Source of the DNA: Candidatus Saccharimonadota bacterium
Lineage (GTDB): Bacteria > Patescibacteriota > Saccharimonadia > Saccharimonadales > Saccharimonadaceae
NCBI GenBank assembly: GCA_017545595.1
Contig: JAFWLO010000006.1
Location: 1-44,829, forward strand
DNA: 44,829 nucleotides
Reading direction: 5' to 3'
A program made the translations under genes and the position numbers. Positions 1 to 744 of this stretch are shown piece by piece (the stretch's first letter is position 1; each line of letters begins with the position of its first letter). The notes below the pieces were generated by a model, which ran no database searches, was not told the origin of the DNA, and worked only from the letters and a program-made list of their open reading frames with translations.

Positions 1-146
1 GTATGAGTTCGAACGGCTACTACTGGTCTTCACATTCTTACTCTACCATGGGCTCTCGCAGCCAGGGCTTCTACTCTACGCGATTCAGTCCTCAGAATGG
101 GTTCCAAAAGGGCATCGGGTTCGCAGTTCGTCGTGTCGCTTTTTAA
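1..146 (+). CDS. 3' end of a FISUMP/DUF1566-like surface protein (5' end outside window)
   Basis: An open frame enters from the left edge and stops at TAA 144-146. The 47 visible codons read SSNGYYWSSHSYST and end in GFAVRRVAF. The aromatic 'GYYWSS' block and the closing 'GFAVRxV' block are typical of the C terminus of FISUMP (Fibrobacter succinogenes major paralogous)/DUF1566-type domains, which are often exported, surface-exposed and C-type-lectin-like. The N-terminal part, any signal peptide and the start lie outside the window, so the function is not determined; ligand binding is only the family expectation. Two further copies of this C-terminal region follow immediately. This is probably the only expressed copy of the three, because the others lack the upstream part of the protein. 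Confidence 0.65.
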   Translation, partial: MSSNGYYWSSHSYSTMGSRSQGFYSTRFSPQNGFQKGIGFAVRRVAF

Positions 147-193
147 AATGTAACAAGCCTCAAAAACAATTACTTTTGTTGTCTCTATAACTA

Positions 194-472
194 TTGCTCA
201 CCAGAGCTGATTCCAGTATTATCTCCGAACCGTTTGCATTTCTACGGAGTGGCTACTATGTCTGGGACTCTACCGGTCTTTATGTTAGGAGTTCGCTAGG
301 TTACTACTGGTCTTCGCATACTTACTCTACCACGTACTCTCACCGTCAGAACGTCTACTCTACGAACTTCTATCCTCAATATGGGAGCTACAAGGGCTAC
401 GGCCTCGAAGTCCGTTATGTCAGAATCAATAAAAACACAACAAACCCTGAAGGTTGTGAACTGTTGAACTAA
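194..472 (+). pseudogene. Headless FISUMP-like C-terminal cassette, copy 2
   Basis: Open to TAA 470-472. It encodes TRADSSIISEPFAF, then GYYWSSHTYST, then GLEVRYV, matching the copy to its left and the one to its right. Homology runs from ACC at 200 to GTC at 421, exactly 74 codons with no indel relative to copy 3. The only start in frame nearby is TTG at 194, without a Shine-Dalgarno sequence. There is no signal peptide and no N-terminal domain, so independent expression as a surface protein is unlikely. After the conserved block the frame continues into an unrelated tail of about 16 codons. It could be a silent donor cassette, a retrohoming or duplication by-product, or decaying DNA. Confidence 0.55.
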
Positions 473-486
473 AGAGAGCAAAGAGC

Positions 487-744
487 TTAACCAGAGCCGA
501 TTCTGGTATTCTATCCGAACCGTTTGCGTTTCCTCACAGTGGCTTCTATAGCTGGAACTCTACTGGCCTTAACAATAGGAGTTCGTACGGCTACTACTGG
601 TGTTCGAATACTTACGCTTCCACGCGCTCTCGCTACCAGGGCTTCGGCTCTACGAGCTTCCATCCTCAGAATGGGTTCTACATGGGCAACGGGTTCGCAG
701 TTCGTTGCGTCGGACGTATGGCCGTCTTTGAGTCTAGGTTATGA
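487..744 (+). pseudogene. Headless FISUMP-like C-terminal cassette, copy 3
   Basis: The frame reads TRADSGILSEPFAF, GYYWCSNTYAST and GFAVRCV, then stops at TGA 742-744 after a short unrelated tail. The conserved block is 490-711, again 74 codons, and begins 290 nt after the equivalent base of copy 2. It is in a different reading frame from copy 2 and has no recognisable start codon or ribosome binding site. The terminal Cys in GFAVRCV, usual for the family, is kept here but is Arg in copy 1 and Tyr in copy 2. Best read as a silent cassette or a fragment of a decayed paralogue. Confidence 0.5.

Follow-up and report, generated by a model that had tools for sequence, protein, structure and literature searches.

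The variable codons of three repeated blocks at the start of the window have almost certainly been written by a diversity-generating retroelement (DGR) that the Saccharibacteria genome itself encodes. The explanation that best accounts for the data as a whole, and which we hold to be probable, is that the copies are DGR-written variants and that earlier C-termini have been kept as silent cassettes. The window, i.e. the whole analyzed stretch of 44,829 nucleotides, is contig C3 of a Saccharibacteria assembly of 744,770 bases in 15 contigs (98.8% complete). The assembly is a fragmented MAG whose contig breaks fall at VR repeats.

Three ungapped in-register copies of one block (identity 74-82%) lie at 2-138, 200-424 and 490-714, as the earlier note had recognized. 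Cassette 1 (1..138, plus strand; repeat at 2-138, profile match) is represented by its 3′ part only, the contig starting inside it, and the missing 5′ part is found on the minus strand of contig C11 (1-116). The C11 start overlaps the window contig by exactly 31 nt, thus the three window copies continue the C11 array. In the first spacer (139..199) an in-frame TAA follows soon past cassette 1 and is succeeded by unrelated sequence. Cassette 2 (200..424, plus strand; profile match 200-420) begins at the border ACCAGAGC(T/C)GA, and cassette 3 (490..714, plus strand; profile match 490-709) begins at ACCAGAGCCGA; both are devoid of a start codon and of a 3′ homing region. The spacer between them (425..489) bears no homology to the template's homing region, and the sequences flanking other cassettes are likewise unrelated. 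Since the window copies possess neither a 3′ homing region nor an N-terminus, they are start-less cassettes rather than complete, currently rewritable targets.

The number of differing shared codons, previously put at about 15 of 44, is 29 of 44 when counted at the DNA level. The claim that the variants nearly always end in C or T is true in all three copies for 19 of these 29 codons. Among the visible codons that are AAC or AAT in the template, 11/12 differ between the three copies, and the triplets quoted as adenine-directed (GGC/TAC/CGC, AGC/CGT/TAC, ATC/TAC/AAC, AGT/TAT/CAT and GGC/AAC) all fall on AAY codons of the template. TTC/GTC was wrongly listed with them: its template codon is TTC, which points to the admixture of ordinary divergence that had also been proposed. 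Template adenines are changed at 17/40, 19/52 and 20/52 sites in copies 1, 2 and 3, respectively, and other bases at 7/92, 15/134 and 6/134. The window copies are DGR-written and have aged afterwards.

Template repeat, reverse transcriptase and adenine-specific changes

The block was matched 44 times across the genome in a DNA search and 57 times in a protein search, and an iterated profile run over the fetched regions gave 56 matches. With the template excluded and the split copy joined there are approximately 54 VR copies, spread over contigs C2, C3, C5, C6, C7, C8, C10, C11 and C15. One further sequence, on the minus strand at C2:66880-67070, encodes PFAFPRSGNYNWNSTGLNNRSSNGNYWSSHTYSTTNSHNQNFNSTNFNPQNGNNKGNGFAVRC and carries Asn (AAC/AAT) at every variable codon; it is therefore the template repeat (TR) that the DGR reading called for. 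No related DNA has been found in phage records and viral contigs.

A DGR-type reverse transcriptase (RT) is encoded on the minus strand at C8:106492-107616 (profile match 106498-107598, E 3.6e-184). It carries the DGR-clade motifs GIVIGNLSSQ (IGNxxSQ) and YVDD (YxDD), and its best solved match is 8ub7 (E 1.1e-37; next 1.5e-11), which we take to be the RT of the BPP-1 DGR. The RT start is overlapped by a companion ORF of 272 aa (C8:107613-108431; profile match 107625-108368, E 2.4e-59) that is conserved in relatives. The family search gave no significant match for the companion; MutS domain I came up in a single relative, at E 0.035. The Pfam RVT_1 search of the genome missed the RT on C8, which was revealed only by the RTs of relatives: the profile had been built from seven RTs of same-genus relatives, and the companion was found with a second profile. 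The sole Pfam RVT_1 match, on C9, was rejected as the DGR RT, being retron type VI-like instead (PADLOC RT_VI, E 2.4e-20). At C9:15430-19970 a retron type VI-like XRE and RT pair adjoins a DpnII-like restriction-modification cluster.

The nearest relatives of the C8 RT come from ruminant-gut Candidatus Saccharibacteria and from Candidatus Nanosyncoccus alces. Some 25 Saccharibacteria contigs are arranged as full-length target, companion, RT and template, the last on the opposite strand just past the RT, and in same-genus relatives template-like sequences directly adjoin RTs with the motif IGNLxSQ. This arrangement does not hold for the window genome, where the template is on C2 and the RT on C8. 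G084 (RGIG2268, from goat duodenum) is a sister genome with a 74% identical RT, and there, too, neither VR nor template was found within 10 kb of the RT; it contains a template and 29 VR copies.

When the 32 less diverged copies were compared with the template, 685 of 1652 adenines (41%) were changed and 386 of 4502 other bases (8.6%), or 318 of 4374 (7.3%) if the last four bases are excluded. The Fisher p-value for the adenine excess (~1e-178) is nominal because the copies are not fully independent. The changes concentrate in AAY codons, where 624/1079 adenines (58%) are altered vs 61/573 (11%) of the other adenines. Three copies are altered at adenines exclusively: C5:753- at 23/52 template adenines, C2:53203+ at 19/52 and C2:68368- at 24/52, each with 0/134 changes at other sites. 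They are textbook VRs that look freshly rewritten.

These data bear directly on the possibility that no DGR is involved and that the copies form a paralogous FISUMP family whose surface codons vary through ordinary mutation and selection. Sixteen highly diverged copies do show changes at all site kinds with no clear adenine bias of their own, but the template, the RT and the three copies with 19-24 adenine changes and none at the 134 other sites already refute such a scheme for the canonical copies, and we regard it as practically eliminated. The 16 diverged copies were also considered as one subfamily; this was rejected, their mutual distance being no smaller than their distance to canonical copies. 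With template repeat, DGR-type RT and companion gene in the same genome, the DGR interpretation of the earlier note is well supported.

The probable target protein and the putative 3′ homing region

The likely main target is an open frame of 940 aa on the minus strand of C4 (2820 to 1) with an N-terminal hydrophobic segment. The frame stops at the contig edge at ICPLGWQLPRNSG, exactly at the start of the repeat, and the gene probably encodes the main target, a large surface protein, with its own VR inside the assembly gap. The C5 and C2:53203 copies represent the same gene end as the C4 target in 5′-truncated form.

The window block has a weak match to the terminal part of FISUMP (PF09603, E ~7e-4, 20 bits). 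The truncated C5 copy scored 29.2 bits with PF09603 (cut-off 33.9) and 31.7 bits with TIGR02145 (cut-off 41.65), a shortfall measured on pieces devoid of the N-terminal half of the domain. Of the FISUMP/C-type-lectin-like C terminus proposed earlier, the FISUMP similarity alone remains, at scores below the curated cut-offs, and the lectin fold has not been confirmed, both structure models of the VR domain being poor (mean pLDDT 47.5 and 39.5). A search by sequence for a solved relative of the VR domain found none. Two diverged FISUMP domains also occur in a 1031-aa open frame at C14:7045-8931, apparently outside the DGR.

The C5 copy matches the 3′ flank of the template, the putative homing region, over 53 nt, and the C2:53203 and C2:68368 copies carry a variant of this flank with an identical GC-rich end. 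At C8:54835 the flank is degenerate, and about 50 other copies, those of the window included, have no 3′ homing region. Of the 35 least diverged copies, exactly those three that have a homing region are free of non-adenine changes; by simple arithmetic the chance of this coincidence, which was picked after the data had been seen, is 1 in 6545. Copies without the homing region have between 1 and 84 non-adenine changes. The pattern is similar in G084, where three contig-end copies with an intact template 3′ flank have two non-adenine changes each and the other copies 3-45. The hairpin predicted 3′ of the VR did not reach significance.

Homing in BPP-1 depends on sequence immediately 3′ of the VR, whereas sequence upstream is dispensable (PMC3240598). 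As the cassettes have no such 3′ flank, they are predicted to be frozen. This speaks against an ordinary multi-target DGR in which all copies are current targets, each VR being rewritten in place. Such a system would agree with the adenine pattern borne by every less diverged copy and with the independent states of the copies, but the template 3′ flank has been kept by three copies only, and it is only in these that non-adenine changes are wholly missing; we consider it very improbable. Since the homing-region copies carry no non-adenine changes of the cassette type, the last event there was DGR rewriting.

Cassette borders, reading frame and arrangement

The borders of the 32 short-head cassettes are sharp: at the 5′ border it takes only two or three bases for the information content to drop from 1.5-2 bits to ~0.1, and at the 3′ border a few bases. 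Equally sharp borders have been found in 26 cassettes of G084 and 19 of G008, and in all three genomes a short pyrimidine-rich stretch precedes the 5′ border. Nine copies have a longer head. An in-frame ATG stands upstream of short-head cassettes in 3/31 cases vs 6/31 in each of the other frames, which is not beyond chance, so that expression of these cassettes on their own was rejected as unsupported.

The 51 complete non-TR copies contain no internal stop and no frameshifting indel, the one stop being the last codon. If substitutions were placed at random, ~50 stops would be expected in the 16 highly diverged copies, vs 0 seen, and ~42 in the 34 other copies tested. For the non-adenine changes the dN/dS-like ratio is 0.49 (p 3e-10). 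This leaves two options: the cassettes serve as coding sequence, or constraint acted on them before they were copied out.

These features bear on the notion that the cassettes are useless debris, dead fragments of past targets dispersed by illegitimate recombination or off-target retrohoming. Short-head cassettes with no start or stop of their own would fit debris, as would the longer copies, which have their 3′ part in common but differ in the point of 5′ truncation, the accumulation of non-adenine changes, and the fact that no cassette-to-target transfer has been seen. However, stops and frameshifts are absent even where about half of the non-adenine sites have changed, the dN/dS-like ratio is 0.49, and identical precise borders recur in tens of copies in three species, which is unexpected for random fragments. 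The debris view therefore has a minor, though real, share of the probability, and a silent bank of cassettes is the best, if unproven, reading, one we moderately favor. The frame conservation could nevertheless predate the copying-out of the segments.

The cassettes stand in direct or inverted arrays. Of the 16 highly diverged VR copies, most of them at C7:16866-26751, almost every one is paired tail to tail with a canonical neighbour, and on C7 the head repeat is shared in both directions. R64-type shufflons likewise have opposed partial C-terminal reading frames in an array, and the C7 array resembles them in this respect. Tail-to-tail cassettes with inverted repeats might accordingly be flipped by a recombinase to swap C-termini behind an N-terminal gene; G045, in which two sequence types alternate in opposite directions in the manner of the C7 array, would be in line with this. 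Close neighbours lie on opposite strands in 20 of 32 pairs, but this is near the expectation for random orientation, and the arrays of G084 and G008 run in a single direction. Moreover, no N-terminal gene adjoins the C7 array, no recombinase was found among the surrounding ORFs with PF00589, and the single tyrosine recombinase of the genome in that search is a XerC/D-like gene on C2, away from the array. Inversion of this kind is thus unlikely, and the C7 array differs from the R64-type shufflon in that no adjacent recombinase or constant gene was found.

Cassettes mostly differ independently of one another in the states of their adenine sites. One pair, C11:1069- and C2:43012+, agrees at 37/37 variable sites, whereas in C7:25502+ and C8:54835+ the agreement is confined to the 3′ half, in a run of 9 shared changed sites (permutation maximum 7); duplication and mosaics therefore occur. 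One cassette pair of G084 likewise exceeds the permuted maximum, the shared part being 5′. The mosaics involve cassettes only, none having been found in homing-region copies, and transfer of cassette sequence to an expressed target was not directly observed.

Other elements were noticed near the cassettes. A dispersed repeat, AACATGAGAGAAGTCGC...TTATGATATTCGAGAGAG, has 13 matches in 248 kb, most of them at ≤450 nt from a VR copy, among them C2:67501-67579, C7:26765-26831, C10:76-153 and C11:1124-1162. Similar genes for AAA-type ATPases (424-428 aa, ending VPIGCLK) occur at three loci, adjoining either VR copies or the template (L061:14953-16227, L065:10242-11528 and L069:1067-2341). In G008, cassettes on C32, C54 and C11 are flanked by the repeat GGCGACATTAGCGGATGTTCGGAAG and its inverted version.

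Block matches, mostly in short frames, were also obtained in G008 (25), G011 (21) and G045 (24), and G085 has ~32; G084 contains three tandem arrays of six VR copies.

A proposed cassette bank and its relation to known systems

In the explanation we favor, the DGR would rewrite the C-terminus of a large surface protein whose N-terminal part is encoded on C4. C-terminal segments would then be copied out without the homing region to become start-less cassettes, which the DGR could presumably no longer rewrite, and recombination might return them to the expressed gene by analogy with the silent-donor systems tprK, vlsE and pilE. A point against this explanation is that the three homing-region copies show zero non-adenine changes of the cassette type. 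No enzyme for capture or recombination came to light, the only PF00589 match being the XerC/D-like gene mentioned above. The stronger proposal, that earlier DGR products are captured by a dedicated mechanism and stored silently, with defined borders, as a repertoire recallable as heritable memory, is put forward tentatively and may well prove wrong.

The system resembles the BPP-1 DGR (Mtd, bRT, Avd, TR) in its DGR-type RT, AAY-codon template, adenine-specific changes in a C-terminal VR and putative GC-rich 3′ homing region. In BPP-1 a single template adjoins a single target, whereas in this genome template and RT are unlinked and start-less VR copies number in the tens; in place of Avd there is a 272-aa companion without a significant family match. 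Host group, RT type and target position agree with the cellular DGRs of Patescibacteria/CPR (DGR clade 2 of Roux et al. 2021, PMC8144416). The consulted parts of that survey describe no cassette bank, and most relatives examined here do not have one either. The genome of Thiohalocapsa PB-PSB1 has multi-locus DGRs with 21 VRs, part of them distant from the RT and the template, but these VRs sit in target proteins and not, as mostly here, in start-less segments without a homing region (PMC10907252). Highly repetitive VRs have been reported for some genomes in another survey (PMC6642488). In a limited search of the open-licence literature we found no description of start-less VR banks.

The silent donor cassettes of Treponema pallidum tprK, of which there are 53 (PMC10063172), and of Borrelia vlsE likewise comprise tens of partial copies that have no promoter, stay in frame and correspond to the variable region of a single surface protein. 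In tprK and vlsE, however, diversity arises by gene conversion alone, whereas here its source is a reverse transcriptase and conversion is a proposed step.

In the usual picture a DGR has a single template and no more than a few complete targets, and each rewrite erases the previous variant. Several Saccharibacteria species appear instead to keep tens of earlier products as in-frame start-less cassettes. If they are recallable, these bacteria would combine random diversification with storage, on which a minimal genome would spend ~12 kb. Because non-adenine changes accumulate after capture, the cassettes would also constitute a record whose entries can be placed in temporal order.
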